A stretch of DNA of 36,551 bases from Thioalkalivibrio sp. (lineage in GTDB: Bacteria > Pseudomonadota > Gammaproteobacteria > Ectothiorhodospirales > Ectothiorhodospiraceae), in contig SKJG01000027.1 in the NCBI GenBank assembly GCA_007116035.1, positions 1 to 36,551 of the forward strand, in the 5' to 3' direction. The translations under genes were made by a program, and so were the position numbers. The notes beneath the pieces were generated by a model. The model did not search any database. It was not told the DNA's origin and worked only from the letters and a program-made list of their open reading frames with translations. Shown in pieces: positions 11,484-29,455 of the stretch. The stretch's first letter is position 1. Each line of letters starts with the position of its first letter.

Positions 11484-11505
11484 CGTGAAAGTCGCGGCCC
11501 AGTTC

Positions 11506-11636
11506 TGTAGGTCGGGTCAGCGAAGCGCAACCCGACGTGCCGGGGGTGCCGAGGTGCCGGGGGACGATGCCTGGCCTGCGCCCATGGGCGGGTGCGGGAC
11601 CCGTCGGGTTACGCCTTTTGGGCTAACCCGACCGAC
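11506..11636. repeat. Two palindromic GTCGGGT...ACCCGAC repeats
   Basis: Unit one (11506-11536) has arms GTCGGGT (11511-11517) and ACCCGAC (11530-11536) around a GCGAAGCG-type loop. Unit two has arms GTCGGGTT (11603-11610) and AACCCGAC (11625-11632). Units of this form are, from memory, common interspersed palindromes in gammaproteobacterial intergenic regions. Together they occupy the space between the SDR gene and dnaE2 and may end upstream transcription. Confidence 0.6.
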
Positions 11637-11697
11637 AATTTCCGGCTTTTCACCATCAGGGGTGCCGCGCGCCCCCACCGGCATGAAAGTAGGGAGT

Positions 11698-11726
11698 TTG
11701 CTCTCTCGCGATAGAACTGTTCAAAT
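11698..11726 (+). promoter_or_regulatory. Candidate dnaE2 promoter
   Basis: TTGCTC (11698-11703), 17 bp, TCAAAT (11721-11726, four of six to TATAAT). The -10 lies inside the LexA-type box, as expected for SOS repression. Transcription would start around 11733, only a few bases from the ATG at 11737. Confidence 0.35.
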
Positions 11727-11732
11727 CAACAG
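11717..11732 (+). promoter_or_regulatory. LexA-type SOS box of dnaE2
   Basis: CTG (11717-11719), ten bases TTCAAATCAA, then CAG (11730-11732): an exact match to the gammaproteobacterial CTG-N10-CAG LexA operator with an AT-rich centre. It ends 4 bp before the dnaE2 ATG. The damage-inducible nature of dnaE2 elsewhere makes this site convincing. Confidence 0.75.
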
Positions 11733-11736
11733 CACC

Positions 11737-14700: not shown

Positions 14701-14937
14701 GGCTCGGCCAAGGGCACCGTCTTCCTGACCCTGGAGGATGAGTCGGGGACCCTGAACGTGATCGTCTGGCCCACCGTGGTGCAGCAGGCACGTTCCGCGG
14801 TGATCCACGCGAATCTGCTGGAGGTGACCGGGGATCTGCAGCAGGAGGATGACGTAACCCACCTGATCGCGAAGCAGCTACGCGACCGCAGCACCTGGCT
14901 GGGCGAACTCACCGTCCGTTCCCGGGATTTCGGATGA
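11737..14937 (+). CDS. dnaE2: Error-prone DNA polymerase DnaE2 (ImuC)
   Basis: C-family polymerase used in SOS mutagenesis and lesion bypass, 1066 residues, usual for DnaE2. The N-terminal PHP domain begins AYAELTCCSNFSFLRGASHP, a hallmark of DnaE2. The palm carries PDIDVDF (405-411) with two catalytic aspartates; GFPRHLSQHTGGFVIA and QWDKDDLDALGLLKIDIL follow. The fingers region includes GVFQIESRAQM and PGPIQGQMVHPYLRRR. The C-terminal OB-fold is seen in YIGLVITRQRPGSAKGTVFLTLED (named by its ends), and the protein ends in the typical VRSRDFG. The ATG at 11737 is the only one matching the family start and has no Shine-Dalgarno; an earlier ATG (11683) lies in the repeat-derived region. ImuA and ImuB, its usual partners, are not adjacent. 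Confidence 0.95.
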   Translation: MAKSEPLPAYAELTCCSNFSFLRGASHPEELVEQAARLGYSALAVTDECSLAGIVRAHQAAAETGLQLIIGTSLQIQDGPRLTLLARSLAGYRILCRLITHARRAGRKGQYRLEAVDLLRPEWAGLPDCEVLWRLEPATAEAADPGPAVSVAASGGASAGPITDADRHWAGWLRKVVPPERLHLALTLTRTPIDAELRKRVRRLGAETGIPVLACGDVHMHVRGRRVLQDTLTALRLKRTVAEAAPALFPNGERCLRPRDDLAGLYPDAWLAETTRVAGRCRFRLDELRYRYPVDSIPPGEAPASWLRGLVERGCRQRWPDGTPAKVRTQIEHELEIIADLGYEPYFLTVHDIVRFARGRGILCQGRGSAANSAVCYALGITAVDPARSSMLFERFISRERNEPPDIDVDFEHERREEVIQYIYRKYGRERAALAAAVIRYRRRSALRDIGRALGVSRARIDALTANMAWWDEGIPGDRLREVGLDPDGPLARQWQVLAQMLVGFPRHLSQHTGGFVIAAGRLDELVPIENAAMPERTVIQWDKDDLDALGLLKIDILALGMLSCLRRALELLALHRDQHWGLADIPAEDPAVYAMLQRADSVGVFQIESRAQMTMLPRLRPETFYDLVIEIAIVRPGPIQGQMVHPYLRRRQGREPVRYPNPEVKRVLERTLGVPIFQEQVIELAMVAAGFSAGEADGLRRAIGAWRRTGRLAGYREKLLHGMRRRGYPQAFAEQIYQQILGFGEYGFPESHSASFALISYVSAWFKCREPAIFACALLNSQPMGFYAPAQIVADARRHGVSVRPVDVTVSATECTVETVPGSGGRQGELGLRLGLGMVRGLHAESGGRIVAARAEGPFRDVAELVTRAGLDRGQATRLARAGALSSLAGHRYRARWATQAVEAPLPLFPLPDARDQAAVPLLPAPGVSEDLVQDYASTGLTLGPHPLALLRGHPGLSGLPTAGDLTAVGARRGVRYIGLVITRQRPGSAKGTVFLTLEDESGTLNVIVWPTVVQQARSAVIHANLLEVTGDLQQEDDVTHLIAKQLRDRSTWLGELTVRSRDFG

Positions 14938-15117: not shown

Positions 15118-15588
15118 TCAGATGAACAGGCAGATATCGGATTCGCCTGCGAATTCGAAGAACGCCGCGGCGCCGGCGTACTCGACGCCGTCGATGAATT
15201 CAGCGGTATCCATCTCGAACAGATCGACCGTCATCTGACAGGCAATCATGCGCACCTCGGCCTCCTGGCAGAGATCGCGCAGGTCCTCGAGACTGGCGAC
15301 GCCCTTCGCCTTCATCTTCTGCTTCATCATCACGGTCATCATCTTCTGCATGCCTGGCAGCGCCTGCAGCAGAACGGGGACCGGCATCGGCATCGGCATG
15401 CCTGGATTGCCCAGGGAACTGACCTGGAGATCCAACTTCTTCTTCAGCAGCTGCAGGCCGTAGAAGGTGAAGAACACCTCCACCTCATAGCCCAGCGCAG
15501 CCGCCGTGGAGGCGAGGATGAACGGAGGATAGCCCCAGTCCAGGCTGCCCTTGGTCGCGATGATTGCAAGTTTCTTGGTGTCACTCAT
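15118..15588 (-). CDS. DsrE/DsrF-like (DrsE_2 family) protein
   Basis: Cytoplasmic 156-residue protein of the DsrE-like superfamily, whose members (TusD, DsrE, DsrE2) carry sulfur as persulfide on a conserved cysteine. Visible family features are IIATKGSLDWGYPPFILAST, GYEVEVFFTFYGLQLL (32-48), a Met-rich central segment with PMPMPVP, and MIACQMTVDLFEM with the probable active Cys117; Cys107 and Cys153 are also present. The start ATG (15586-15588) fits the family and has a GGGGAT-like ribosome site; an in-frame TTG five codons upstream is less likely. It is the last of twelve minus-strand genes. A sulfur-transfer role fits the sulfur-globule-like gene in the same run, but the tusA and rhodanese partners usual for DsrE2 are absent here. 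Confidence 0.85.
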   Translation of the reverse strand: MSDTKKLAIIATKGSLDWGYPPFILASTAAALGYEVEVFFTFYGLQLLKKKLDLQVSSLGNPGMPMPMPVPVLLQALPGMQKMMTVMMKQKMKAKGVASLEDLRDLCQEAEVRMIACQMTVDLFEMDTAEFIDGVEYAGAAAFFEFAGESDICLFI

Positions 15589-16285: not shown

Positions 16286-17812
16286 CTAACCGCGCGACTC
16301 CTGCCCGGTCGCCGGCGAGGCTTCGCTGCTGCTTTCTTCGCCCGCTTCGGGCTCGGATGACGGGGTCGGCTGCGCCATCTTCCGGGTTTCCTCGCGGGTC
16401 GCCCCCTCGTCCATGAACTGGTTATTCAGACGCTGCACATAGGCCTCGACCTGATCACGCAACGCATGTAGCTGCCGCACCGCCCCACGCCCCAGGCCCG
16501 CCGGCGATTTGCGGAAGATCGACCGCCAGAACACTGTGTTCTTCAGGAAAGCCGCCCGCCAGTTTCCGGAGGCGGTCTCATCCGGAAGGCTGCGCGCGAT
16601 GCGGCGCGCCGCCCAGCTCCGGTTGAAAAAGTGGATACCCAGCAGCGCGACGAGCAGGACGACCGCCGCCAGCCCGGAGGTGACGGGATGCTCCGGTATC
16701 GCCTCCAGCAGGGGACCAAAACCATCCGCCATGGCCTGTGCCGCATAGGCCACGACGACCAGGACCACCGCCATCATCGCGACATTGGCGCGAACGACCC
16801 AGCGGCGCCAGCGTCCCAGCGCACCCTTCAGTGCCGGGACGGCGTCCATTTCCATCGACTCGGCAATCGCCTGCATCGCGCCAACGATGCGGTAGGAGCG
16901 CGAGGAACTGATCTCCGCGATCTTGGCGTGGATCTCGTCGCGGTCGCGGGCGGCCTTGTATTCGTAACGCGCCCGGACCTTCTCATCGCCGATCTCGACT
17001 GCCGCGCCCGTGTTGTACAGGCAGTAGAAGCGGCCGGTGGCGTTACCCTGGCGTACCACCGCGCGTTGCCAGGCAGAGACGACCTCCTCGAGATTGTCCT
17101 CGCGCCAGGTGGTGTCGATCTGGTTCAGCACGAACACCAGCTTGGTGAAGTCGTTGCGCGCGGCAACCCGGTTCACCAGGTGCTCGAGCGTGTCGCGCAT
17201 CGCTCCCGGTTCCGGGTGGCGGGCGTCGAAGAAGACCAACACGAGATCGGAAAGGTCGATGATGTGATCGGTCAGCTGCAGGATCGTCGCCCGCTGCTCG
17301 TCGGCGTCGAATCCCGGCGAGTCGATCAGAATCCGGCCACGCAATCGCTCGGACTTGACCGTCTTCATCGCGAGGAAGTGATCCACGGTGCGCCCCGCAC
17401 CGTCGCTCAGACGCTCGATTTCGCTGCTGACTCGGTAGAAGGGAAAACGCGGATCCCCATCGAGAGCGAGACCGGGCAGTTCCTTCACCTGCTCGCTGGC
17501 GCCGTAGCTGATCACCGTGAAGCGATCGTCGACGGCCTGGCTGCCACTGCGCTGTACGGCCGCGCCGATGTACTCGTTGATGAAGGTCGATTTGCCCGCG
17601 GAAAAGGTCCCGAGCACCGCGATCATCGGCCACCACGAGATGGTGAAGGCGTACGACTCCTCCTCGGGATTCATCAGCCCGGCCGAATAACCGAGGCGGT
17701 CCAGGGCACGGAAAGAATCGACGACACCTTCCAGTGCCGGATTTTCCTCCGAGAGCCGATTGCTGAGCAAACTCAGCTGCTGGTTTACGCGGTTGCCGGG
17801 ACGATTGAACAT
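16286..17812 (-). CDS. Dynamin-like membrane GTPase
   Basis: Large GTPase of 508 residues. G1 is GTFSAGKS (68-75), a G2-like Thr lies in DDRFTV, G3 is DSPG (164-167) and G4 is NQID (230-233). Two hydrophobic segments (about 340-360 and 379-397) form a C-terminal membrane hairpin, a layout like bacterial dynamin-like proteins, which bind and remodel membranes. A basic/aromatic stretch follows, then an acidic Ser/Glu/Pro-rich tail (about 470-508). The ATG at 17812 has GGAG 6 nt upstream; a longer in-frame start at 17842 lacks a good site. It lies directly after the coiled-coil TM protein gene (36-bp gap) and probably shares its transcript. Bacterial dynamins often come as neighbouring pairs; only one is present here. 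Confidence 0.8.
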   Translation of the reverse strand: MFNRPGNRVNQQLSLLSNRLSEENPALEGVVDSFRALDRLGYSAGLMNPEEESYAFTISWWPMIAVLGTFSAGKSTFINEYIGAAVQRSGSQAVDDRFTVISYGASEQVKELPGLALDGDPRFPFYRVSSEIERLSDGAGRTVDHFLAMKTVKSERLRGRILIDSPGFDADEQRATILQLTDHIIDLSDLVLVFFDARHPEPGAMRDTLEHLVNRVAARNDFTKLVFVLNQIDTTWREDNLEEVVSAWQRAVVRQGNATGRFYCLYNTGAAVEIGDEKVRARYEYKAARDRDEIHAKIAEISSSRSYRIVGAMQAIAESMEMDAVPALKGALGRWRRWVVRANVAMMAVVLVVVAYAAQAMADGFGPLLEAIPEHPVTSGLAAVVLLVALLGIHFFNRSWAARRIARSLPDETASGNWRAAFLKNTVFWRSIFRKSPAGLGRGAVRQLHALRDQVEAYVQRLNNQFMDEGATREETRKMAQPTPSSEPEAGEESSSEASPATGQESRG

Positions 17813-17848
17813 ACGCACTCCGTGGTTGGGAACGGGATCCATGCCGCG

Positions 17849-18379
17849 TCAGCGGCCGCCGTGCTGCGGGTAGTAGGGTGCAGGGGAACCCGGAAACGGT
17901 CCCTGGCTGCCGCTAAACGGATTGAAGCTATTCATCATGCCGAGCGGCCCGGAGACGTTCCGGTTCAGGCTCCACATGTCGCGCTGCATATTGAGTGTCG
18001 AACCCGCCATGGTCGTGGTATCGCTCGACATGGAGCGGATATTGGCATTCATGCTGCCAATGTCGCGCGTCATCGCACCGATGTTCCGGTCCATCGATAG
18101 CATGTTGTCGTTGATCGAGACCATACGGCCATCGATGTCACCCATCTTCCTGGCCATCACCGTCATTTCCCGTTCGATCGTCCGGGTCATTGCCGACATC
18201 TCGATCGCGAGGCGGCTGACGTCCCTGGTCAGGCTGGTGATCAGCCAAAAACCATACACGGCCAGCACGACGAAGGCGACCAGCGCTGAATAGACGATCA
18301 GTTGTAGGCGCCGCGAGCGGACGTCGTAGTCCTCCGCGTCGACATGGCGTGCGTCGTTTCGGTAGTCAAAATCACTCAT
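17849..18379 (-). CDS. TM protein with regular Met/Ile heptad coiled coil
   Basis: Unrecognised 176-residue protein. An acidic cytoplasmic N-terminus (1-24) leads to one TM helix (about 26-47). A coiled coil (about 50-142) has unusually regular 4+3 spacing: segments such as MLSMDRNIGAM, TRDIGSM, NANIRSM and LNMQRDM put Met at one core position and Ile or Met at the other. A Gly/Pro/Tyr-rich tail (143-176, ending APYYPQHGGR) recalls the exported low-complexity proteins encoded upstream. The likely topology places coil and tail in the periplasm, but this is inference. It sits between the DUF302 and GTPase genes with short gaps. A structural or tethering role is plausible. Confidence 0.7.
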   Translation of the reverse strand: MSDFDYRNDARHVDAEDYDVRSRRLQLIVYSALVAFVVLAVYGFWLITSLTRDVSRLAIEMSAMTRTIEREMTVMARKMGDIDGRMVSINDNMLSMDRNIGAMTRDIGSMNANIRSMSSDTTTMAGSTLNMQRDMWSLNRNVSGPLGMMNSFNPFSGSQGPFPGSPAPYYPQHGGR

Positions 18380-18430: not shown

Positions 18431-19018
18431 TCACGAATCGGCTTCTGCAGCCCGGTCAACGATCTCGCGCAGCGTTTGCTGAAGGCCAAGCGCCTGCTCC
18501 TGCAACGCCAGCGGCAACGGCCGACCGCCGTGAAGCACGAGATCCAGATTGGGCGTCATCAGCCATATGTGTCCGTTATCGTCCTCGTGCACGATGACAC
18601 GGCAGGGCAAGAAAGCCGCCGTCGAAGGATTATGGCGAATCAGGTCTGACGCCAGATCGGGATCGCAGAAAAGGTGGATCTGCAGCAGGGGGAAATCGCG
18701 CCCCGTCTGAGCCAGGACCTGTCGCTGCACCGGCAGCGTACCCAGGGAGTGGAGCTCGAATTCTTTCGCCGCTCGGCCCAGTGCCGTTTCCACGTCGGCG
18801 ACCGACAGGCCAGGATCGGCTCTACGCTGATAAACCATCGCCTCCATCGGATCCCCGGTCTCGAGAATGGTCCGCGCCATCCCGGCATAAACCGCCAGGG
18901 CCGATTCATCCAGGCCACGGGCCTTGTTCACGTACGGTTCAAGAACGAGGATGGCGGCTCCCACCGCGACCAACGCGAGCAAACCGACCAGCGCAAGCAG
19001 GTTCCGCACCAGCCTCAT
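18431..19018 (-). CDS. Membrane-anchored DUF302 domain protein
   Basis: Protein of 195 residues with an N-terminal TM anchor (about 5-28), a variable region, then a DUF302 (PF03625) domain: the DFPLLQIHLFCDPDLASDLI block (about 108-127) and AFLPCRVIVHEDDNGHIWL (about 134-152) are the recognisable signatures. DUF302 proteins are small alpha/beta proteins of unknown function, often membrane-tethered. Cys residues in LFCDP and LPCRV are characteristic. The domain probably faces the periplasm. It follows the TPR gene by 109 bp and precedes the coiled-coil gene by 51 bp. Confidence 0.8.
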   Translation of the reverse strand: MRLVRNLLALVGLLALVAVGAAILVLEPYVNKARGLDESALAVYAGMARTILETGDPMEAMVYQRRADPGLSVADVETALGRAAKEFELHSLGTLPVQRQVLAQTGRDFPLLQIHLFCDPDLASDLIRHNPSTAAFLPCRVIVHEDDNGHIWLMTPNLDLVLHGGRPLPLALQEQALGLQQTLREIVDRAAEADS

Positions 19019-19127: not shown

Positions 19128-19901
19128 CTACCTGAATTGATCGAGGTGCGAGCGGCCGGCCGGATGGTAGCGGTCGTAGAACGGCGCCAGCTGGCGCAGC
19201 ATCGCGGCCCGTTCCTCGGCCGGCAGGATCCGGAGAGCAGAATCGTAGGCCGCCAGTGCAGCGGTGAAATTTCCGGCCGTGAAGTGGTAATTGCCCATCT
19301 CCCCGTAGAGGTCCGCGCGTTCCGGAGCATCGTCCGGGAGTTCGCGCAACCCGGCTGCCAGCACCGCTGCGGCAGCGCCGGGCCCACGACTGCGGGCCAC
19401 GGAACGCGCCCGGGACAGCAGTTCGGCAGGTTGTTCGACAGCCGCTGGGGCGGCGGCTTCCTCGCTGACGACTGGCGGTTCCGTCATTGGGGTGGCGGTG
19501 ATGGGCGTTTGAGGCTCCGCAGCAGGACGATCCACTTGCGCTTCCGCCGCAGCCTCGGCTTCCGGAACGCGCTCAGGAACGCTCGGCGCCGGTTCGGGTT
19601 GCGGCGTGACGCTCACCTCGGGCTCCGGTACCGGGGCAACGGCTTCGGGCTGCGGTGCGGGTTCCGGCTCCGCCGGCGGCGTCTCCGGGGCCGGCGGAGG
19701 AGGCTCTGCAGCGGCAGCCTCTTCTTCTGCCTCTACGTCCCGGACAGCAGGGGCAACCTCGATGGGGGCTTCCTCGGCATATGCATCCTCACCCGCAGGA
19801 GCCTGCCCCGCAAGCCAGTCCCGGTTGGCCCAGGCGATGACCCAGAGAACGATGACGATGAGAATCCAGTATTTACCCAGAAAGGTGCGCGCTGCAGCCA
19901 T
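19128..19901 (-). CDS. TM-anchored protein with Pro/Glu/Ala-rich linker and TPR-like C-terminus
   Basis: Unrecognised 257-residue protein of modular build. One TM helix (about 10-25, ILIVIVLWVIAWAN) is followed by a long low-complexity linker (about 35-165) rich in Pro, Glu and Ala, reminiscent of TonB-type periplasm-spanning segments. The C-terminal helical region (about 170-250) has TPR-like features in the GEMGNYHFTAGNFTAALAAY motif. The ribosome site AAGGTG precedes the ATG. It is encoded 48 bp after parA. A role as an adaptor linking the inner membrane to a periplasmic partner is plausible but not shown. Confidence 0.7.
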   Translation of the reverse strand: MAAARTFLGKYWILIVIVLWVIAWANRDWLAGQAPAGEDAYAEEAPIEVAPAVRDVEAEEEAAAAEPPPPAPETPPAEPEPAPQPEAVAPVPEPEVSVTPQPEPAPSVPERVPEAEAAAEAQVDRPAAEPQTPITATPMTEPPVVSEEAAAPAAVEQPAELLSRARSVARSRGPGAAAAVLAAGLRELPDDAPERADLYGEMGNYHFTAGNFTAALAAYDSALRILPAEERAAMLRQLAPFYDRYHPAGRSHLDQFR

Positions 19902-19949: not shown

Positions 19950-20585
19950 TTACCGGCGGGACTTCCGATAGATCGCCTTGGCCAATTCGTCGAGTTCGAG
20001 GGACGCCTTGCTGCGGCGCTCCAGCTCCTGGACCGAGAGCCCCTCGCTGAAGGAGCGGCGGAACGCCATACGCTGGCTCAGACGCGGGCGCAACGCCCGT
20101 ATCCCCTCGATCATTCCGAGGGCACCGAAGGCCTCGTCCGATTCGCGGACGGCCTGGTGGGTATCGGCCCTGTTGATGAAACCGATGATTTCCGGTTTTG
20201 CCCGGTCTCCGCGCAACTCCAGAATTTTCTTCGCGAAACGTTGCGTCGACCAGACATCCGCCTGACTGGGGGGAACCGGGATGATCACCTGGTCGGCCGC
20301 CAGGATCGCCGCATACATGGTGCCGAGGTCGGACGGACCGACATCGACGATGATTTCTTGATAGGTCTCTGCCGCCTTGATCGCCTCTTCGAGGCTTTGC
20401 GAGAGTTCCAGGGACGGGGAATACCCTTCTTCCTCACGCACCCGGATCACGTCGGTCAGTGTGGCCTGGGGATCGAGATCCACCAGCAGCACCTTCCGTT
20501 TGTTGCCTACTGCCCACAGGGCCAGATTGAAGGCCACCGTGCTCTTGCCGGTACCGCCTTTCAGATTGCCGATAACAGTCAGCAT
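19950..20585 (-). CDS. Orphan ParA/MinD-type ATPase
   Basis: ATPase of 211 residues in the ParA/McdA/PpfA class that positions cargo by nucleoid- or membrane-bound gradients. The deviant Walker A KGGTGKST (9-16), Walker A' VLLVDLDPQ, and Walker B-like IIVDVGPSD are clear, and the C-terminal part is rich in Arg and Lys (RRSKASLELDEL, IYRKSRR), as expected for DNA contact. There is no N-terminal HTH and no ParB or parS nearby, so it is not a chromosome-segregation ParA. Orphan members position carboxysomes, chemoreceptor arrays and other bodies; neighbouring genes encode exported scaffold-like and membrane proteins. The cargo cannot be named from sequence. Confidence 0.85.
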   Translation of the reverse strand: MLTVIGNLKGGTGKSTVAFNLALWAVGNKRKVLLVDLDPQATLTDVIRVREEEGYSPSLELSQSLEEAIKAAETYQEIIVDVGPSDLGTMYAAILAADQVIIPVPPSQADVWSTQRFAKKILELRGDRAKPEIIGFINRADTHQAVRESDEAFGALGMIEGIRALRPRLSQRMAFRRSFSEGLSVQELERRSKASLELDELAKAIYRKSRR

Positions 20586-20610
20586 GCAGGGGGCCTCGAG
20601 GCAACGAGTT

Positions 20611-20638
20611 GGAAAAGACCTACCCGGCCGAGGCCGGG
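20611..20638 (-). terminator. Likely terminator after the sulfur-globule-like gene
   Basis: CCCGGCC/GGCCGGG palindrome (20623-20638) followed on the minus strand by TAGGTC and TTTT (20613-20616), 22 bp after the 20660 stop. It may separate or attenuate the upstream exported-protein genes from parA. Confidence 0.5.
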
Positions 20639-20659
20639 CAGATCACCCTTTCGAGGAAC

Positions 20660-20998
20660 TTACCAGCGCGGGCCGTAGCCGTAGCCGGGGCCGTAGCCGC
20701 CGTAGCCGGGATGTCCGTAGCCGTAGGCATCACCACGCCCATAGCCATGGCCGCGGCCAGCACCACGTCCGGACATGCCGAAGTCCATGTCGCTGAACAT
20801 GTCGCCCATGCCGAACATGTCGCCCATTCCACGGCCATAGCCGGGGCCGTAGCCGCCGTAGCCAGGCGCGTAGCCAGGACCGCCGTAGCCAGGACCACCC
20901 CAACCCGGGCCGCCCCACTGGGCAGACGCCAGCATCGGAGCAGCGGAGAGGGCAGCAACGGACGCGGCCAGAACGATTGCCTTAACGAACTTACTCAT
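20660..20998 (-). CDS. Sulfur-globule-type Gly/Tyr-rich exported protein
   Basis: Small exported protein of 112 residues. A signal peptide (1-26) with hydrophobic core and ASA/Q cleavage site is followed by a mature part built almost entirely of Gly, Tyr, Pro, Trp and Met repeats such as GGPGYGGPGYAPGYGGYGPG (about 38-57), a Met/Asp/Phe patch (MGDMFGMGDMFSDMD, 58-72), and further GYG repeats to the end. This composition matches sulfur-globule proteins (Sgp) that coat extracytoplasmic S0 in purple and chemotrophic sulfur bacteria. The ATG at 20998 has GGAGG 6 nt upstream. Similar low-complexity composition occurs in other structural proteins, so the Sgp assignment is likely rather than certain. 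Confidence 0.65.
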   Translation of the reverse strand: MSKFVKAIVLAASVAALSAAPMLASAQWGGPGWGGPGYGGPGYAPGYGGYGPGYGRGMGDMFGMGDMFSDMDFGMSGRGAGRGHGYGRGDAYGYGHPGYGGYGPGYGYGPRW

Positions 20999-21020
20999 GA
21001 AAACCTCCAATGGAGTTTAT

Positions 21021-21054
21021 GCCCTCTTGTCAATGGTGCGCCGGCCGAGAGGGC
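21021..21054 (-). repeat. Inverted repeat in the leader of the Gly/Tyr-rich gene
   Basis: GCCCTCT (21021-21027) and AGAGGGC (21048-21054) pair into a 7-bp stem about 25 nt upstream of the 20998 start. It could be a weak terminator of the gene above, an mRNA-stabilising leader hairpin, or an operator. A TTGACA lies in the loop on the minus strand but has no -10 partner. Confidence 0.3.
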
Positions 21055-21080
21055 TACCAGCCAGCGCACTTCACTCGTCC

Positions 21081-21617
21081 CTAGAATGGCATACCGTACA
21101 TTGGGACAGTTCCAAAGGATGAACCGTACAGCGGTGACAAATGCCCCGGCGTCAAAAGACCCGAACCCGGGAAGAGCATACCACTACCCGGATAGACGCC
21201 ATAAGGCGACAGGCCGGGGTAGCCCGAGCCCGGAATCCCGTAAAGGCTCTGGGACCAGGGACTTCCGATGCCAGGCTCTGCGAAACCGAACCCGCGGGCA
21301 TCAGGGGCCGTCAGAATTCCCATGGACGGATACTGGAGATGCCCGGGAATCCCCGGTTGCATGCGCTGCGCCGGATCCCCCAGGCGCGGATCGCTCCGGC
21401 GACGATCGTTGACGGGATCGTAGTCGCGAGGGGCGAACCGCCCATCCGCGTTGGGCCGCATCCCCGGCGCAGGAGCGCGCTGCTCTGGCGTTGCCCAGGG
21501 ATTGCCCCGATCCCGTGCCTCAAGATCGACCGCGAGGAACAGGCTACTCGCCAAGCCAAGCACAAGTAGCCAGACCACGCTTGGCCAGAGATTCCACACG
21601 GTTCGCACTCGGTTCAT
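21081..21617 (-). CDS. Exported Pro/Gly/Tyr-rich low-complexity protein
   Basis: Unrecognised 178-residue protein. A hydrophobic N-terminal segment (about 12-30, VVWLLVLGLASSLFLAV) serves as signal peptide or anchor. It is followed by an Arg/Asp/Pro-rich stretch (about 35-85) and then a Gly/Pro/Ser/Tyr-rich C-terminus with repeated motifs such as YPGLSPYGVYPGSGMLFPGSG and PLYGSSFGTVPMYGMPF (shown by their cores). No cysteines are present. Composition and location between two other exported low-complexity proteins suggest a structural component of the same body or coat. Codon use and GC content look like the neighbours, so there is no sign of recent transfer. Confidence 0.65.
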   Translation of the reverse strand: MNRVRTVWNLWPSVVWLLVLGLASSLFLAVDLEARDRGNPWATPEQRAPAPGMRPNADGRFAPRDYDPVNDRRRSDPRLGDPAQRMQPGIPGHLQYPSMGILTAPDARGFGFAEPGIGSPWSQSLYGIPGSGYPGLSPYGVYPGSGMLFPGSGLLTPGHLSPLYGSSFGTVPMYGMPF

Positions 21618-21686
21618 CGCACGGGGTCGACCTTCGGCTCATGGACGCGCCGTTGCAGGCTGCCCATGGCCGACAGGAGTCCCTCC

Positions 21687-22370
21687 TTACTCCGCTGAAC
21701 CCTGGTTCCCGCGGCGCTCTTCCATCATCTTTTCAATGGCCTCGCGCTGCTGCTCCATTTCAGCCATGAAGGCCTCCCGACCCGCCTCCATCGCCTTCTC
21801 GCGGGCCGCGCGCATCTCTTCCATCTGCTGCATCTGCTTCTCGCGCTCGGCCATCATCTCTTTCATGCGCTCCTCGCGCTCGGCGATCGCCTCCCGCATC
21901 TCCTCGGGCAGCGCGGACATGTAGGCCTCGCGCGCGGCCTCCATCGCCTTCTCCCGAGCCTCGCGCATCGCTTCCATCTGTTCCATGTAGGCTTCGCGCT
22001 CAGCCTGCATCGCCTTCATGCGCTCTTCACGCTGGGCTTGCATGGCCTTCATGCGCTCTTCGCGCTCGGCCATCATGGCCTTCATCTGCTCTTCGCGCTC
22101 GGCCATCATGGCCTTCATCTCCTCGGACATCTCGCCGTCATGGCCCTCACGAACCCATGGCGGCGCGGCGCGACCATGCGGCGAACCAAAACCGCGGTCG
22201 GGGCGGCCATATCCGTAGCCCATCGGTCCCTGAGCGGCACCGGGGGCGCCATAGCCCTGACCGTACTGGCGCTCACCCGCCTGCACCGTCCCGGCCAGCG
22301 CCAGGGTCGTTGCCACGGCCAGCGCCGTCAGCGAGAACGTACCGAAACGTTTGGTCATTTGATGCTTCAT
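21687..22370 (-). CDS. Exported Met-rich protein with 11-residue coiled-coil repeats
   Basis: Protein of 227 residues with a signal peptide (1-31, VQA/G cleavage), a Gly/Tyr-rich stretch (32-65) like the sulfur-globule-type neighbour, and a long, highly charged Met/Glu/Arg helix (79-220). The helix has hendecad repeats: MKAMMAEREEQ (85-95), MKAMMAEREER (96-106), MKAMQAQREER (107-117) and MKAMQAEREAY (118-128). A larger unit is also duplicated: EKAMEAAREAYM (140-151) returns as EKAMEAGREAFM (191-202). Hendecads form nearly straight, right-handed coiled coils. An ideal ribosome site AAAGGAG precedes the ATG. No family is recognised. Extracytoplasmic Met-rich helices may bind soft metals or act as filament or coat proteins. 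Confidence 0.75.
   Translation of the reverse strand: MKHQMTKRFGTFSLTALAVATTLALAGTVQAGERQYGQGYGAPGAAQGPMGYGYGRPDRGFGSPHGRAAPPWVREGHDGEMSEEMKAMMAEREEQMKAMMAEREERMKAMQAQREERMKAMQAEREAYMEQMEAMREAREKAMEAAREAYMSALPEEMREAIAEREERMKEMMAEREKQMQQMEEMRAAREKAMEAGREAFMAEMEQQREAIEKMMEERRGNQGSAE
21987..22118. repeat. Four tandem 33-bp coding repeats
   Basis: In-frame tandem repeats encoding residues 85-128 of the Met-rich coiled-coil protein, with repeated CATGGCCTTCAT / CTCTTCGCGCTCGGC cores on the plus strand. Near-identity of adjacent units at DNA level suggests recent expansion and likely copy-number variation between strains. Confidence 0.75.
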
Positions 22371-22410: not shown

Positions 22411-25400
22411 TCACTTCAAGCGGATGCCACGCCGTCGACGGGCATTCCCTGTCGGCCCACCGGAGCCGGCGGGTTTCTCGACGCGGCCGGATACCGCATC
22501 GGTGGGCTGCTCCTTGGCACCCGCGGCCTTGGCCGTCGCGCCCCGTGATGACACAGAAGAGTCCTTCCGTTCCACGGCCGCCTTTTTCGGCTGTCCTTTT
22601 TTGCGCTCCTGCGAAACTGCGGGATCCTGCTGCGCGGCAGGAGCACCGTTGCCGGTGTCCTCGGGCCACGCAGGCGCGCCCGTGGATCTTCCTGGCTCTG
22701 CAGACGGCGAGGCTGGTTCACGTGCCGCTGGCACGGCGGCGCCCTTCGCGGGTGCGTCGGAGGCTCCGCCGCTGACAGCCGAATCCTTCGCTCGACGGGG
22801 CGCAGGGCGCTTCGGTTCCGATCGCGCCTCGTCGCCCTGCACGCCGGACGGAGCGGCGGCGTCCGGGCCCGACGACCCACCACCGCCGGTGCCGGGAGAC
22901 CCGGTTCCGGGACCGCCGCCCGTACCCGGTCCAGGCGGGCCATCGGAGCCGCCCCCGACCAGTCGCAGGATCAGTCGCGCGATGGCGCGCAGGAACTGCA
23001 TCACGCCCTCGACGAAGCTGGCCCCCAGCGACTTCAGGTAAAGCAGCAGCAGCCCGATGGCATTGGCGACCGGTCCACCCGAAGGATCGGTCATCCTGCG
23101 CGGTGCAGCGGAGGCACTCCCGCCCGACGGCCCGGGTCCGTGGTCCGGTCCCATCGCCGTCAGCGTGCCGTCGCCACCCGGGCCCTCGCCTTCATGGCGA
23201 TCCAGGGACTCGAAGGTCTTGCGGGCACTGATGCAGCCCAGCGGGATGACCAGCAACGTCAGCAGAGTGGCCACGATCGTCCCGAACATCAGCGAAACCG
23301 CCATGCCCTGGAAGATCGGGTCGAACAGGATGACGCTCGAGCCCGCAAGCAGCGCGAAGGCGGTGATCACGATGGGTCGCGTTCGTGCCTGGCAGGCGTT
23401 TACCATCGCCTGCATCACATCCTCTCCTTCGGCGACCTGGTGCCTCGCGAAATCCACTAGCAGGATGGAATTGCGCACGATGATCCCCGCCAGCGCGATG
23501 AATCCGATCATCGAGGTCGCGGTGAACTCCGCCCCGAGGAGCCAGTGGCCCGGAATGATCCCGATCAGTGTCAACGGGATGGGAGCCATCACGATCGCCG
23601 GCAGCAGGAAATTGCCGAACTCCCAGACCACCAGCATGTAGATCAGCACCAGTGCGATGGCGAAGGCGATCCCCATGTCCCGGAAGGTTTCGTAGGTCAC
23701 GGTCCACTCGCCCGTCCACTCGAAGGCGACGGAACCGTCATTGGGGGGAGGACCCACCCAGTAGGATTCGAGAGTCCCGCCGCCGGGGAGCCGGTAATCC
23801 GCGAGTTGCTGCTCCACCTCGAGCATGCCGTAGATCGGTGCCGCCAGCCGGCCCACCGTCTCCGCCGTCACATACTCGACAGGCCTCAGGTTCTTGTGGA
23901 ATACGGGTTCGTCCTGCGGGATCCGTACGAACTCACCCAGTTCCGACAAGGGCACGGAACCGCCAGCCATGGCAGGAACCGGCAGCAGCAGCAGGCGCTC
24001 GATGTCGGAACGGACCTCCATCGGGAGGCGCAGTCGAATCATGTGCGGCTCGACCAGGGAACGGGCCTTGACGTCTCCCAGCAGCTGGCCGCCGACGGCC
24101 GCCTCGAGTGTGCGGTTCACGGCGTCCACGGTCACACCGCGACGCAGCGCCTTGTCCCGCTCCACGTTGAAGTGCCAAACGTCATACGGCGCTTGCAGGA
24201 AGCTGTCCACGTCATCCAGATGAGGGGCGTTCCTGAACATCTGCTCCATGTCGAGGGCGACGCGCCGGCGGATCTCGGCATCCGGCCCATAGATCTCGGC
24301 AACCACGGACTGCAGGACCGGCGGGCCGGGCGGCATCTCGACGACCTGGATCCGCGCCCCCGCGGCCTGCGCCATGGGCGCAAGCAGTTCCCGCGCCTCG
24401 ACCGCGATCTGATGGCTGGTGCGGCGCCGGTCGCCCTTGTCCAATAACTGAACCTGAATGTCCGCCTGCCAGGGCTGCTGACGCAGATAGTAGTGGCGCA
24501 CCAGGCCGTTGAAATTGAACGGCGAGGCCGTACCCACGTAGGCCTGTACCGCGGTGACCTCCGGCAGTTCCCGCAGGACCATCGCGAGCTCGTGGGTCAG
24601 GGTCGCCGTCCTCGGAAGCGCGGTGCCTTCAGGGAAATTGATGACCACGTTGAACTCGGGCTTGTTGTCCAGGGGCAGCATCTTCACCGACACGTCCTTG
24701 GTGACGAAGAGCATCACGGTCAGAAAGAAGACGACGACGATGCCGATCAGGAACCCCCAGCCATAGGTGCGATTGTTCACCAGACCCGGGATGGCCTTGG
24801 CGAAGAACCGGCCCATCATCTCGTTCTGCTTGTGTTCCTTCTCCTCGGCGCGCTGCAGGTATTCCATCGAAGGACGGAGCCGCCATGCCAGCCACGGCGT
24901 GAAGAGGAAGGCGGCCACCAGGGAGAACAGCATCGCGACGGAACCCAGCGCCGGGATCGGCTGCATGTACGGCCCCATCATGCCGGTCACGAAGCCCATG
25001 GGGAGCAGTGCCGCGATGACGGTGAAGGTCGCGAGGATGGTGGGGTTGCCGACCTCGGCGACGGCATCGACCGTCGTCTCGGTGTCGACGCCCCGTTTCA
25101 TCAGCCAGCGCCGGTAGATGTTCTCCACCACGACGATCGCGTCGTCGACCAGGATGCCGATCGCGAAGATGAGGGCGAAGAGACTCACGCGGTCGATGGT
25201 GTAACCCATCAACCAGGCACTGAAGATGGTGAACAGCAGCACGACCGGGATCACGATCAGCACGACCAGTGCCGCGCGCAGGCCGAGGAAGATGAAGACG
25301 AGCACGGTGACCGCAGCCGTGGCGATGAAGAGCTTGAACATCAGCTCGTTCACCTTGGCGTTGGCGGTTTCACCGTAGTTGCGGGTGACCGAGACCTCGA

Positions 25401-26442
25401 CGTTGTCCGGAATCACCTGCCCCTTCAGCAATTCGAGACGTTCCAGAATCCCATTGGCCACAGCGACGCCGTTGCTGCCCTCCTTCTTCGCGATGGCGAT
25501 GGTCACGGCGGCCGCCCCGACGGGGGCGACCTCGGCCTGATCCCCGGCGACTCCGGTGTAGTAGCGCACGAAGCGGTCCACCGGTCCGGGACCGTAAATC
25601 ACCTCGGCAACGTCACGGACGTAGACCGGGCGCCCCGCGTCGACGGTGATCAGCAGACGTCCGATGTCCTCGGCGTCACGCAGGAATGACCCGGTGTATA
25701 CCGGAATGCTGTCCGAGCCCACTTCGATCGATCCTGCGGTCCGCTCCGAGTTCGCGGCCTGCAGCGCCTGCGCGATCTGTTCCATGGTCACGTTGTGACC
25801 GGCGAGGCGCTCCGGCATCGGCTGGATCCGCACCATCTCCTCGCGCCCGCTCACCACGAAGCTCTGGCTGGTGTTTGGCACCTCGTTCAGGTACTGAAGG
25901 CTGTCCAGCGCGATCTGCCGGAGCATGGCGTCGTCGACTTCATGCGACCATAACGTCAGGGTCACCACCGGAACGTCGTCCACTCCCTTCGGCTTCACCA
26001 TCGGCTCAGACACGCCGGGCGGCATCAGGTCGCGGTTGGACATCAGCCGGTCATGCACCTTCAGGATCGAGGCTTCCATCTCCTCGCCCACGTCGAACTG
26101 AACGGTCACCATCGCCTCGCCGCGATGGGACATCGAATAGACATTGTCGACGCCCGAGATCTCACTCATCAGGCGCTCTAGCGGCCGCGCAACGAGACTG
26201 ACCACCTGCTCTGACGGCACGCCGGGGAACTGGACAAAGATGTCCACCATCGGCACCGAGATCTGCGGATCCTCCTGGCGAGGCGTGATGAGGAGACCCA
26301 GGATGCCGATCGCCAGCGTGGCCAGCAGCAGCAGCGGAGACAGCGGCGAGTGGATGAACGTCTGCGCCATCCGGCCGGCCAGCCCGAGGTCCTTTCCAGG
26401 TTCCCCGCCACCGGCGGCATGCTGATTGTTATGCTCGGACAT
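22411..26442 (-). CDS. RND efflux permease with a long cytoplasmic C-terminal tail
   Basis: Inner-membrane proton-driven RND transporter of 1343 residues, against about 1030-1070 for typical HAE1 pumps. The core has the N-terminal TM1, periplasmic porter domains, TM4 with LVDDAIVVVEN (431-441) whose paired Asp433/Asp434 match the AcrB proton-relay aspartates, and TM10 with GIIVRNSILLVDFA, where Arg replaces the Lys of AcrB. The core ends near residue 1080. The tail (1081-1343) has an amphipathic/hydrophobic segment (about 1125-1163), then a Gly/Pro/Ala-rich, increasingly basic disordered region ending NARRRRGIRLK. The membrane-fusion gene lies upstream; no outer-membrane factor is present. 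The substrate is not predictable; HAE-type rather than metal-type is likely from the TM4 motif. Confidence 0.9.
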   Translation of the reverse strand: MSEHNNQHAAGGGEPGKDLGLAGRMAQTFIHSPLSPLLLLATLAIGILGLLITPRQEDPQISVPMVDIFVQFPGVPSEQVVSLVARPLERLMSEISGVDNVYSMSHRGEAMVTVQFDVGEEMEASILKVHDRLMSNRDLMPPGVSEPMVKPKGVDDVPVVTLTLWSHEVDDAMLRQIALDSLQYLNEVPNTSQSFVVSGREEMVRIQPMPERLAGHNVTMEQIAQALQAANSERTAGSIEVGSDSIPVYTGSFLRDAEDIGRLLITVDAGRPVYVRDVAEVIYGPGPVDRFVRYYTGVAGDQAEVAPVGAAAVTIAIAKKEGSNGVAVANGILERLELLKGQVIPDNVEVSVTRNYGETANAKVNELMFKLFIATAAVTVLVFIFLGLRAALVVLIVIPVVLLFTIFSAWLMGYTIDRVSLFALIFAIGILVDDAIVVVENIYRRWLMKRGVDTETTVDAVAEVGNPTILATFTVIAALLPMGFVTGMMGPYMQPIPALGSVAMLFSLVAAFLFTPWLAWRLRPSMEYLQRAEEKEHKQNEMMGRFFAKAIPGLVNNRTYGWGFLIGIVVVFFLTVMLFVTKDVSVKMLPLDNKPEFNVVINFPEGTALPRTATLTHELAMVLRELPEVTAVQAYVGTASPFNFNGLVRHYYLRQQPWQADIQVQLLDKGDRRRTSHQIAVEARELLAPMAQAAGARIQVVEMPPGPPVLQSVVAEIYGPDAEIRRRVALDMEQMFRNAPHLDDVDSFLQAPYDVWHFNVERDKALRRGVTVDAVNRTLEAAVGGQLLGDVKARSLVEPHMIRLRLPMEVRSDIERLLLLPVPAMAGGSVPLSELGEFVRIPQDEPVFHKNLRPVEYVTAETVGRLAAPIYGMLEVEQQLADYRLPGGGTLESYWVGPPPNDGSVAFEWTGEWTVTYETFRDMGIAFAIALVLIYMLVVWEFGNFLLPAIVMAPIPLTLIGIIPGHWLLGAEFTATSMIGFIALAGIIVRNSILLVDFARHQVAEGEDVMQAMVNACQARTRPIVITAFALLAGSSVILFDPIFQGMAVSLMFGTIVATLLTLLVIPLGCISARKTFESLDRHEGEGPGGDGTLTAMGPDHGPGPSGGSASAAPRRMTDPSGGPVANAIGLLLLYLKSLGASFVEGVMQFLRAIARLILRLVGGGSDGPPGPGTGGGPGTGSPGTGGGGSSGPDAAAPSGVQGDEARSEPKRPAPRRAKDSAVSGGASDAPAKGAAVPAAREPASPSAEPGRSTGAPAWPEDTGNGAPAAQQDPAVSQERKKGQPKKAAVERKDSSVSSRGATAKAAGAKEQPTDAVSGRVEKPAGSGGPTGNARRRRGIRLK

Positions 26443-26535: not shown

Positions 26536-27714
26536 CTAGCGGAAACGGGGGCCGGGCCGCGGGGCCTGGGTCCCGTTGACACGATCGCCGGAACGGATGT
26601 TGGCGTCGGGTGAATCGAGGATGCGTTCCCCTGCCTCTAGCCCCGACAGCACCGTCACCATGTCCCCCTGCACCGAGCCAAGCCGAATCATCCGCACACG
26701 TGTGGTTCCATCGGCCTCCACGACCGCAACGCGTGGCAGGGCACCCCCCGGCACGATCGCCGAGAGCGGGATACGCACCACCCCGGGACTGGTCTGGGTA
26801 CCGGGAAGATGCACGTCCGCATACATGCCAGGCCCGCCGGGAACACCTCGCGGCAGATCGAACTTGACCGTTACGGTATGCCGCTGCGGATCCGCGATCG
26901 GGAAGATCTGCGCCACGCGGGCGTCGACTTCCGTCTTCCCGACGTCGAGGGTCACCCGGACCATGTCGCCGACGGCCAGCCGACCCACGAGGCGCGCCGG
27001 GATATCCGCCTCCACCCGGAGGAATTCGACATGACCGAAGGTGACCAGGGGATGCCCCGGCTGCACGGTATCGCCCTCCTCCACATGCTTGCGCATGATC
27101 AACCCCGAGAACGGGGCCACGGAGCGCGTATCGCGGATCGCCGAATCGATCTCCTCGAGGCGCGAGCGCGCCTGGTGCCAGCGCGAGCTCGCCTGGTCGA
27201 TGCCGACCTGGCGGGAGAAAAGGTCGGCATGACGCTCGACCGCGGGGTCTCCGAGGCCGGCGATGGCGCCGGCCGGTCGGGTGATCAGCTGGTCGAACAT
27301 GGAGGGAATGCCCATCCCCGGCATCTGGCCGATGTCCCGGCTGCGCGGCGCGGCGACTTCTCGCCCGAACTGCATCTGGGCCTCGCGCAGGGCCGCCTCG
27401 GCCGAACGCAAGTCCGCGATGGCCGCCTGGCGCTGTGCCGCCAGCCGTTCGTCGCTGATGGCGACCAGCACCTCGTCCCGATCGAAGAAGTCGCCCTCGG
27501 CGCCGGCGACCAGGGTGACGCGTCCCCCGATCTGCGCCGTCAGCGTCACCTCGCGGAACGGCACCACCGTCCCGCTGATGGTCTGGTCCCCCGCGGTCGC
27601 GGCCTCGACCGTGACCATCCTGCTGAACTGGGCCGCCGACGTGCCCGCGAAAATAAGAACTGCTGCAGCCAGGGCAGCCAGGAACACTCTGGTTGGAGTC
27701 ATGGTCTTCTTCAT
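26536..27714 (-). CDS. RND periplasmic adaptor (membrane-fusion protein)
   Basis: HlyD/AcrA-family adaptor of 392 residues that would link the RND permease to an outer-membrane channel. It has an N-terminal signal or anchor (about 10-30), a first lipoyl half (QTISGTVVPFREVTLTAQIGG), a helical hairpin, the second lipoyl half (VAPFSGLIMRKHVEEGDTVQ), the beta-barrel (LVGRLAVGDMVRVTLD) and the membrane-proximal domain. The hairpin is interrupted by about 45 residues rich in Met, Pro and Gly (GQMPGMGIPSMFDQL), so its tip is unusual. The ATG at 27714 is chosen for the signal peptide; longer in-frame starts reach back to 27870 and an alternative ATG lies at 27702. This is the first gene of the twelve-gene minus-strand run. 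Confidence 0.87.
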   Translation of the reverse strand: MKKTMTPTRVFLAALAAAVLIFAGTSAAQFSRMVTVEAATAGDQTISGTVVPFREVTLTAQIGGRVTLVAGAEGDFFDRDEVLVAISDERLAAQRQAAIADLRSAEAALREAQMQFGREVAAPRSRDIGQMPGMGIPSMFDQLITRPAGAIAGLGDPAVERHADLFSRQVGIDQASSRWHQARSRLEEIDSAIRDTRSVAPFSGLIMRKHVEEGDTVQPGHPLVTFGHVEFLRVEADIPARLVGRLAVGDMVRVTLDVGKTEVDARVAQIFPIADPQRHTVTVKFDLPRGVPGGPGMYADVHLPGTQTSPGVVRIPLSAIVPGGALPRVAVVEADGTTRVRMIRLGSVQGDMVTVLSGLEAGERILDSPDANIRSGDRVNGTQAPRPGPRFR

Positions 27715-28027
27715 GTCGTTGGTTCTAAGTGTAGGCGCTGGCCGATCCGTCCGCAGGCCGAGCAGCGCCCCAGTGCAGGCATCCGACCCGAACAACCCTC
27801 TCTTTTTACCACAACCCACGGCCTCCGTGTGTTCGCGCCGCGGGGAAAACGGCCCCCGCAGGCTGCCCAATAACCACGCCGATCCATTCGATTCTCATTC
27901 CTGACCACTGACCTCAAAGATACGCGAAAGCGCTCGGAAATTAGTGCGATTCGTTGCAACGTTGGTTCCCTTCAACGGACGGGGAAATCGAGTCATCACG
28001 ACTTGGAACAGAGGGTTGGGAGCTTCC
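27715..28027. other. Divergent control region between the RND run and its likely regulator
   Basis: These 313 bp separate the adaptor gene (minus) from the Fis-type regulator (plus). A 10-bp palindrome CGTTGCAACG lies at 27952-27961. A pyrimidine/T-rich stretch at 27797-27809 is not preceded by a hairpin. No consensus -24/-12 (GG-N10-GC) promoter and no good sigma-70 promoter was found for either gene, and no additional gene is visible. Confidence 0.4.
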
Positions 28028-28043
28028 ATGGAACAGTTGCAAC
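27953..28043. promoter_or_regulatory. Two GTTGCAAC palindromes flanking the regulator start
   Basis: Perfect 8-bp palindromes GTTGCAAC lie at 27953-27960 (extended to CGTTGCAACG) and 28036-28043, 83 bp apart, about eight helical turns, on either side of the regulator ATG. They could be operator half-sites for autoregulation. The evidence is only their symmetry and repetition. Confidence 0.25.
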
Positions 28044-29455
28044 ACTTCTGGCATCCTGTTGCACAAGCCCGCCGGATTCCCGCCATGAACGCAGAAACGC
28101 TCGCCGAACTGGTACGTAGCCTGATACAGCCCAATCGTGACGGGGTCATGGTCATCGATGATCAAGGCCGCATTGTCACACACAACACAGCCTTGGTTGA
28201 ACTGCTCGACCAGCCCCACGGCACCCGTTTCGAGTCCACCCTCCGCCTGGGCCCGGTCAACCTGCAACGCCTGCTGGTCCGGGCCGCCATTGCCGCCGGC
28301 CAACAGGATGTCGTCGGCCGTCCGCGCTGGCGGGCACTGGATTTCAGGACGGAGTTGGATTTCCGTGACCCGCCGCTTCCGGTGCGGGTCACCAGCAACG
28401 CGTTGCCACAACTTGCGAACGACCGGAAACTCAGGGTCGTAACCATCCTCCCGGACCTCGCGGCCACCGAAATCGCTGCCGATCCCGGGGGGTTCACGCC
28501 GGGCTCACCGTTGGAATCGGCCGACGCCCAGTGCCAGTCGCGATTGGATCATGCCCTTCGCGCGGCGACGGCCGGGACGAGACTGCTGTTGCTCGGCGAG
28601 ACGGGAACCGGGAAGAGCCTGCTGGCACAGACGCTGCACACCTCCAGCCGCCGCGGGACCGGACCCTTCATCGATGTGCACTGCGCCGCCCTCCCTGAAC
28701 TCACGTTGGAGTCCGAACTCTTCGGACATGCCCGTGGGGCATTCCCGGGTGCCAGTGCCGAGCGCACGGGACGTCTGGAGGCGGCCGCAGGGGGCACCCT
28801 GCTGCTCGAGCAGGTGGACGCGATGTCGCCGCATCTGCAGGGTGCCCTGCAGCGCACGCTGAGCGAGGGCCGTTTCGAACGCGTGGGAGAAAACCGTGTC
28901 CGCCATCTCGACGCGAACATCGTCTCAACGTGCAGCCTGGACCTGCGCCAGCATGTTGCCGGCGGCCGGTTTCGCGCCGATCTCTATTACCGCATCGCGG
29001 GCATCTGTGTCCTGTTGCCGCCATTACGAGAACGTCCGGGCGACCTCGATACGATCGTGGAACAGTGGTCCGGCCACAATCGGATTGCGATCACCAAGGC
29101 TGGCCGCCGCCGTCTGCACGAGCACCCCTGGCCCGGCAATTTCCGCGAACTGCGCAACCGGCTCGAAGCCCTGCGCCTGGGAGCCTCTCCCGGCAGCCGT
29201 CTGGGCGAGGCCGAGATCGGCGCAGCCCTGTCCAGTCCCCAGGAGGGATCCCTGCCGAACACGTTCCTCGATCCTGACCTCGGCCACGGCGAAGCCCCTG
29301 CTCCCTTCTCCCCGGACGAAGAGCGGGAGCGCGAGACGCTGCGCGCAGCGCTGGCGGCGCACAACGGCAACCGTTCGCAGGCCGCCCGCAGCCTGGGCAT
29401 GGACCGCACCACGCTGTGGCGCAAACTGCACCGCCTGCGCCTGCGTTCGACATGA
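28028..29455 (+). CDS. Sigma-54-type AAA+ transcriptional regulator with altered GAFTGA loop
   Basis: Regulator of 475 residues: N-terminal PAS-like domain (about 35-150; DGVMVIDDQGRIVTHNTA), AAA+ domain with Walker A GETGTGKS (190-197), Walker B-like GGTLLLEQVD, the R-finger region FRADLYYRI, and a C-terminal Fis-type HTH (about 434-475; NGNRSQAARSLGMDRTTLWRKL). The loop that contacts sigma-54 reads GAFPGA (237-242), Pro replacing the conserved Thr, and Walker B ends EQVD instead of the usual DExx. Both changes suggest weakened ATPase or sigma-54 coupling, so it may act through another polymerase or as a DNA-binding repressor. The ATG at 28028 has GGGAG upstream; an in-frame GTG (27944) would add 28 residues. 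It is divergent from the RND run. Confidence 0.85.
   Translation: MEQLQHFWHPVAQARRIPAMNAETLAELVRSLIQPNRDGVMVIDDQGRIVTHNTALVELLDQPHGTRFESTLRLGPVNLQRLLVRAAIAAGQQDVVGRPRWRALDFRTELDFRDPPLPVRVTSNALPQLANDRKLRVVTILPDLAATEIAADPGGFTPGSPLESADAQCQSRLDHALRAATAGTRLLLLGETGTGKSLLAQTLHTSSRRGTGPFIDVHCAALPELTLESELFGHARGAFPGASAERTGRLEAAAGGTLLLEQVDAMSPHLQGALQRTLSEGRFERVGENRVRHLDANIVSTCSLDLRQHVAGGRFRADLYYRIAGICVLLPPLRERPGDLDTIVEQWSGHNRIAITKAGRRRLHEHPWPGNFRELRNRLEALRLGASPGSRLGEAEIGAALSSPQEGSLPNTFLDPDLGHGEAPAPFSPDEERERETLRAALAAHNGNRSQAARSLGMDRTTLWRKLHRLRLRST

Follow-up and report, generated by a model that had tools for sequence, protein, structure and literature searches.

A conserved locus of an RND exporter, three exported low-complexity proteins and a small ParA ATPase in Thioalkalivibrio

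The 36,551-nt stretch of Thioalkalivibrio sp. DNA analysed here (the window; contig C117, SKJG01000027.1, of the 3.03-Mb genome G000) carries three adjacent genes for exported low-complexity proteins, P1, P2 and P3, next to an RND exporter and a small ParA ATPase, raising the question of what these proteins form and what ties them to their neighbours. We propose that the trio are extracytoplasmic structural proteins of zero-valent sulfur deposits, co-operonic with the exporter and ParA, a reading to which we assign a probability of roughly 0.65. It draws directly on the genes and the constraint acting on them, the conserved order of the trio, the descent of P1 and P3 from sulfur-globule proteins (SGP), the link with sulfur-oxidising genomes and the all-or-none co-occurrence of ParA with an RRGIRLK motif in the exporter. 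The less expected and larger result is the conserved exporter–trio–ParA locus itself, with its co-varying RRGIRLK tail.

Three genes between an exporter and a ParA ATPase

A preliminary description of this DNA had picked out three neighbouring exported low-complexity proteins, and the corresponding ORFs were found there, all on the minus strand and transcribed in the order P3, P2, P1. The features of the locus are as follows:

15118-15588, minus: DsrE2-family protein, candidate sulfur carrier (PF13686, 182 bits; position kept across the genus)
16286-17842, minus: dynamin-like GTPase with membrane segments (Dynamin_N, 60 bits)
17849-18379, minus: small membrane protein, DUF948-like below cut-off (profile, synteny)
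18431-19018, minus: DUF302 protein with an N-terminal membrane segment (PF03625, 55 bits)
19128-19901, minus: membrane-anchored TPR-like protein (weak TPR matches below cut-off; syntenic)
19950-20585, minus: small ParA-family ATPase with deviant Walker A KGGTGKST (NF041546, 129 bits against a cut-off of 180; AAA_31, 61 bits)
20660-20998, minus: P1, 112-aa exported Gly/Tyr-rich protein of SGP (PF17228) type, core SDMDFGMSGRGAGRGHGYG (profile, alignment, dN/dS)
21081-21617, minus: P2, 178-aa exported 'NPW' Pro/Gly/Tyr-rich protein without a Pfam family (dN/dS 0.19-0.30)
21687-22370, minus: P3, 227-aa exported protein with a short Gly/Tyr head and a Met-rich helical rod of 11-residue repeats (dN/dS 0.11-0.22)
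22411-26442, minus: RND (AcrB/HAE1-type) permease with a low-complexity C-terminal tail of about 250 aa (Pfam ACR_tran, 489.5 bits)
22414-22440, minus: C-terminal RRRRGIRLK of the RND tail, co-varying with the ParA gene (comparison of loci and tree)
26536-27870, minus: periplasmic adaptor (MFP) of the RND exporter, true start probably internal at about 27717 (TIGR01730, 154 bits)
27944-29455, plus: divergent sigma-54-dependent activator with a Fis-type HTH (PF00158, 168 bits)

P1, P2 and P3 are real genes under purifying selection. Against congeners, dN/dS was 0.03-0.09 for P1, 0.03-0.07 for ParA and as listed for P2 and P3, with L058 left out of the P2 range because its synonymous sites are saturated. 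The plus strand also holds longer open frames across the trio (for example, 20609-21412), but P1 and P3 have ribosome-binding sites on the minus strand, and conservation and constraint likewise favour minus-strand coding. The conserved order and dN/dS values led us to reject the view that these low-complexity ORFs had clustered by chance. Export signals had been assigned to all three N-termini; read by eye, those of P1 (ASA-Q site) and P3 (VQA-G site) are clearly of the Sec type, while that of P2 is hydrophobic with a less canonical cleavage site.

From the exporter through ParA, the gaps between genes measure 40-82 bp, with P3 starting 40 bp past the permease stop, and no terminator-like site was found on the minus strand between 22411 and 19950, which together suggest a single operon. 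The sigma-54 activator, or the DUF815 AAA protein encoded upstream of the exporter genes (29416-30297, plus), is a possible regulator of this operon; a scan for sigma-54 promoters gave a result at chance level. On the far side of the locus, a DNA polymerase III alpha-type gene (11485-14937, plus), probably encoding an error-prone DnaE2, adjoins DsrE2 in part of the genus.

P1 matches were found in 26/30 genomes of the genus, and the P1 search gave no match in the nearly complete congeners G001, G005, G021 and G029. Wherever enough sequence was read, one order is kept genus-wide: adaptor, RND permease, P3-P2-P1, ParA, and further on DUF302, small membrane protein, dynamin-like protein and DsrE2. 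The trio is thus part of an exporter–ParA–dynamin–DsrE2 locus, which goes beyond what the preliminary description had read in this DNA.

Searches with the RND permease recovered loci from Magnetococcales, Rhodospirillales, Magnetovibrio, Rhodobium, Chromatiales, Thiotrichales, Sedimenticola and SUP05. Many of them encode, between the permease and ParA, exported low-complexity proteins, namely a PPPGPY-type, an NPW and an SGP-core protein, often joined by one of DUF4412 type. The earlier suggestion that the three genes travel together was therefore borne out, by an order kept within the genus and by similar cassettes in distant taxa. From these comparisons, the trio is an ancient cassette flanked by the RND exporter on one side and the small ParA on the other, with versions in Gammaproteobacteria, Alphaproteobacteria and Magnetococcales. 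A recent mobile cassette was rejected from gene order, which is the same in distant lineages. In five Magnetococcales loci (L103, L104, L111, L118 and L141), two adjacent Asn/Gly/Trp-rich SGP-like proteins with WGNNGWGNN repeats precede ParA.

Relation of the trio to sulfur-globule proteins

P1 had been described as a sulfur-globule-type protein, and this identification is well supported by its relatives. The predicted mature chain is 42% Gly and 14% Tyr. Alone, P1 scores 16.1 bits against the Pfam SGP profile PF17228 (E 0.021), below the curated cut-off of 26.7 bits, but this cut-off is exceeded by the orthologue from congener G023 (29.2 bits) and by three paralogues encoded in the same genome as P1, on contigs C73 (48.7 bits), C125 (45.8 bits) and C36 (27.8 bits). 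SGP also matches 23/30 P1-position proteins from distant taxa (E up to 0.1; best E 6.9e-25), the same 30 proteins giving one chance match to any other Pfam family. Scored singly, 7/10 same-position homologues pass the cut-off with 31.7-88.1 bits, including L077 (34.6), L254 (39.9), L120 (43.9) and L121 from Magnetovibrio (88.1). Thus, P1 belongs to the sulfur-globule type by transitive homology and not by its own score. In the alignment of the P1 set, an AxA cleavage region and aromatic/Gly repeats accompany a core that reads GDFSMSFSGRGxGxGYG, of which P1 carries the version SDMDFGMSGRGAGRGHGYG. Outside the locus, SGP-type paralogues of P1 lie on C53 and C173 as well as on the three contigs named above.

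SgpA and SgpB (CV1/CV2) of Allochromatium vinosum resemble P1 in being small, exported, Gly/Tyr-rich and tied to sulfur-oxidising genomes, and the Pfam profile of the SgpA/SgpB kind is the one that covers the orthologues and paralogues of P1. P1 differs from them in its core, FGMSGRGxGxGYG, and in its location in an exporter–ParA operon; the A. vinosum genes sgpA, sgpB and sgpC are dispersed (Alvin_1905, 0358 and 1325; PMC10386293).

P3 had been described as a Gly/Tyr segment fused to a Met-rich coiled coil, and both parts were recovered. The mature protein is 21% Glu and 15% Met, and its self-identity peaks at lags of 11 (0.46) and 22 residues (0.42), revealing an 11-residue repeat. AlphaFold2, run with 13 sequences (pTM 0.38), predicted two long helices, 83-153 and 156-223, mostly at pLDDT >90, and a disordered head (pLDDT <50). 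In the other clade of the genus, a basal form of P3 carries a full SGP-like core, SGDFSFGMSGRGHGQGYGRG, ahead of the helical part, and one such protein reaches 22.8 bits with the SGP profile (E 1.7e-4), short of the cut-off. The P3 proteins of L066 and L067 retain a partial core, GGMSFGGRSSARGQGYG, and in the window P3 the core is reduced to QGPMGYGYGRP and the rod is lengthened. This series suggests that P3 arose from a protein with an SGP core through the gain of a helical rod built of 11-residue repeats, its Gly/Tyr head being the decayed core, a point that the preliminary description had not reached. The sulfur-globule reading of P3 is moderately supported. NCBIfam profiles gave chance coiled-coil matches only for P3 and no match for P1 or P2.

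The Met content of P3 and its position directly after the RND permease also bear on a different explanation, in which the exporter serves to expel metals or toxic compounds and P3 is a SilE/PcoE-like periplasmic metal binder without a role in sulfur storage; RND pumps with Met-rich periplasmic partners are known. We consider this very unlikely. The permease scores higher with multidrug-type RND models than with CusA/CzcA (427 versus 267 bits), the Met residues of P3 track the helical repeat as would fit a coiled-coil core, basal P3 combines an SGP core with fewer Met repeats, and the neighbouring genes are of SGP type and DsrE2. With RND multidrug exporters (AcrB/HAE1, RND_permease_2) the permease shares a full ACR_tran domain and an adjacent adaptor gene. 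It differs from them in its long low-complexity C-terminal tail ending in RRGIRLK and in forming a separate subfamily, whose members are 53-76% identical, the next RND protein reaching at most 48%.

A closer parallel to P3, under the reading of the trio as structural proteins of sulfur deposits, may be SgpD of A. vinosum (Alvin_2515), an exported, predicted helical protein found on globules in vivo and encoded beside a hydrophobic/amphiphilic exporter (PMC10386293), with BLAST relatives, according to its authors, almost only in Chromatiaceae (PMC10386293). Compared with this published description, P3 is likewise exported and repetitive, with predicted helices flanked by disorder, and its gene also has an exporter as neighbour. 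Unlike SgpD, P3 lacks a central region of regularly spaced PxxPxxP prolines (Pro makes up about 4% of the P3 studied here); its rod is much longer, and its head derives from SGP. We do not assign P3 as SgpD, the likeness resting on SgpD's description. The published sgpD terminator sequence, sought in the loci examined to locate the A. vinosum locus, was found in none. Elsewhere in Chromatiaceae, the SgpD-like protein of L247 gave weak matches only, probably driven by composition. In that locus (genome G450), a Met-rich coiled-coil protein comparable to P3, with PPPPGPY, directly follows the RND relative, and in L256 (G240) a Gln-rich counterpart of P3 does so.

P2, of which the mature form is 17% Gly and 17% Pro, matches no Pfam family. 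Its hallmarks are an NPW motif shortly behind the signal and a C-terminus rich in Pro, Gly and Tyr, and P2-type proteins hold the same position in Alpha- and Gammaproteobacteria. Because they align poorly (mean column identity 21%), it is position and the NPW motif that speak for common descent, and on these grounds we place P2 in a putative unnamed 'NPW' family. Its sulfur-globule reading is by association only. By E-value P2 had seemed specific to one clade; this was overturned when an NPW protein of P2 type was read in loci of the other clade.

Association with sulfur oxidation

We surveyed 369 evenly drawn gammaproteobacterial genomes for SoxB (E up to 1e-100) and DsrA (E up to 1e-30); the window's own genome encodes both. 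The RND subfamily was present in 74/369 genomes. SoxB and/or DsrA occurred in 72/74 of these compared with 92/295 of the others (odds ratio 79, p ~9e-28), SoxB or DsrA in 54/55 genomes with SGP (p ~1e-20), and SGP co-occurred with the RND subfamily at p ~2e-35, all p values that count genomes as independent and so overstate significance. The preliminary description had named the trio's presence in organisms without sulfur oxidation as counter-evidence; in general this was not seen, nearly all genomes with SGP or the exporter encoding SoxB or DsrA, the exceptions with the exporter subfamily being G351 and G391. In G391, the locus (L259) contains the exporter and ParA together with a PPPPGPY protein and two exported proteins rich in Gly. 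A search for rusticyanin in G391 and its relative G186 returned matches below cut-off only.

These counts also bear on the possibility that the trio is a general surface layer, adhesive or matrix material, of use to haloalkaliphilic sulfur bacteria yet not bound to sulfur, the sulfur-gene link reflecting shared ecology. Exported proteins rich in Gly, Tyr and Pro occur commonly in surface and matrix materials, extracellular sulfur deposition is reported for many Thioalkalivibrio, and the trio is missing from this locus in Chromatiaceae. Against this stand the family of P1, which is the Pfam sulfur-globule family with its near-complete confinement to SoxB/DsrA genomes, and the presence of this association in soda-lake, marine and magnetotactic lineages alike. 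On balance, we regard a general surface material as unlikely.

Chromatiaceae are the classic globule formers. Their loci L232-L246 keep the exporter, the motif and ParA, with the trio replaced by exported proteins with YRFRP-like repeats; the exception is L238 (G489), which retains the trio. Since exporter, motif and ParA persist there with other exported proteins, the locus and the globule coat appear separable.

For Thioalkalivibrio, electron-dense globule envelopes have been reported (PMC10386293), and Tv. paradoxus ARh 1 stores sulfur inside the cell (PMC5328954). G012 is one congener genome that carries the trio. Other members of the genus are reported to deposit their sulfur extracellularly, so a coat need not be periplasmic. 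Ectothiorhodospiraceae have been stated to lack sulfur globule proteins (PMC8877833; PMC10892978). Our profile scores argue against this for Thioalkalivibrio, as at least three proteins of the window's own genome lie above the Pfam SGP cut-off and same-position homologues pass it too.

The exporter tail and ParA

By analogy with AcrB, the low-complexity RND tail is probably cytoplasmic. Among 92 distinct exporter loci, a same-strand ParA gene lies within 7.5 kb in 66, and the exporters of all 66 carry the motif. The motif is missing from nine loci that offer enough sequence and have no ParA. In three others it is present with no ParA nearby, and the genomes of these three encode a ParA relative elsewhere (41-52% identity). 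In the motif-less genomes G240, G450, G116 and G343 and in that of L106, ParA is absent or distant (27-32% identity, at most 55 bits). Scored by presence of ParA, 67 of 77 exporters have both motif and ParA, 10 have neither and none is mixed. On a tree of 85 exporters, built by a quick method and containing some long branches, at least four changes of the motif are required, and 4/4 independent pairs are concordant with ParA (sign test p = 0.125, the events being too few to reach 0.05). L106 has a 378-aa tail with neither motif nor ParA, which argues that the motif, and not the tail, follows ParA. The tail thus appears matched to a ParA-type positioning protein, with which it may be in contact.

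The small size of this ParA, its deviant Walker A and its single operon with putative cargo genes recall ParA/McdA-type cargo-positioning ATPases, as does the co-conservation with ParA of a basic low-complexity candidate partner segment, here the RND tail. What differs from those systems is the candidate partner, here the tail of an exporter in the inner membrane, and the location of the supposed cargo, which is extracytoplasmic. A literature search returned no paper with both 'sulfur globule' and 'ParA', subscription papers being mostly outside its coverage.

If the trio does belong to sulfur deposits, P1 would form a coat on zero-valent sulfur, the role that SGP proteins have in A. vinosum. 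In a way conceivable for an SgpD-like component, the SGP-derived rod of P3 might join coat units to one another or to the envelope, and P2 could act as a flexible partner in a putative co-assembly of the three. The RND exporter and its adaptor would handle hydrophobic sulfur and deliver it to the coat, or hold the deposit site. ParA, bound to the exporter tails, would distribute exporters and globule sites both along the cell and when it divides. The same envelope site may be where the DUF302, dynamin-like and membrane TPR proteins act, and DsrE2 would fit a cytoplasmic sulfur carrier.

The part of this scheme in which ParA binds the RRGIRLK tail, so spacing the exporter and a coated extracytoplasmic sulfur deposit along the cell, would amount to an undescribed envelope machine, and we advance it tentatively, at clearly less than even odds. 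If true, it would to our knowledge be the first case of a ParA positioning an extracytoplasmic storage body via an exporter tail. The locus names candidates for sulfur delivery, deposit placement and sharing at division, namely the exporter, ParA, the dynamin-like GTPase and the three coat-type proteins, a set conserved from Thioalkalivibrio to magnetotactic bacteria.

Another reading, in our view also less likely than not, is that the trio are coat proteins and that the exporter and ParA serve a separate function in a shared operon, RRGIRLK being used otherwise, for example in membrane insertion or degradation control. This would fit the Chromatiaceae loci, where exporter, motif and ParA persist without the trio, and G240 (L256) and G450 (L247), where the exporter and full trio are kept and motif and ParA are both gone. 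It sits less well with the order of exporter, trio and ParA, identical in three distant lineages, and would leave the strict co-occurrence of motif and ParA unexplained.

Tail-less exporters of the same subfamily with no ParA alongside were seen in L248-L253, L122, L130, L136 and L139, including second copies in Chromatiaceae and SUP05. For the Chromatiaceae second copies, ParA was scored by adjacency only, because these genomes may hold ParA beside another copy.
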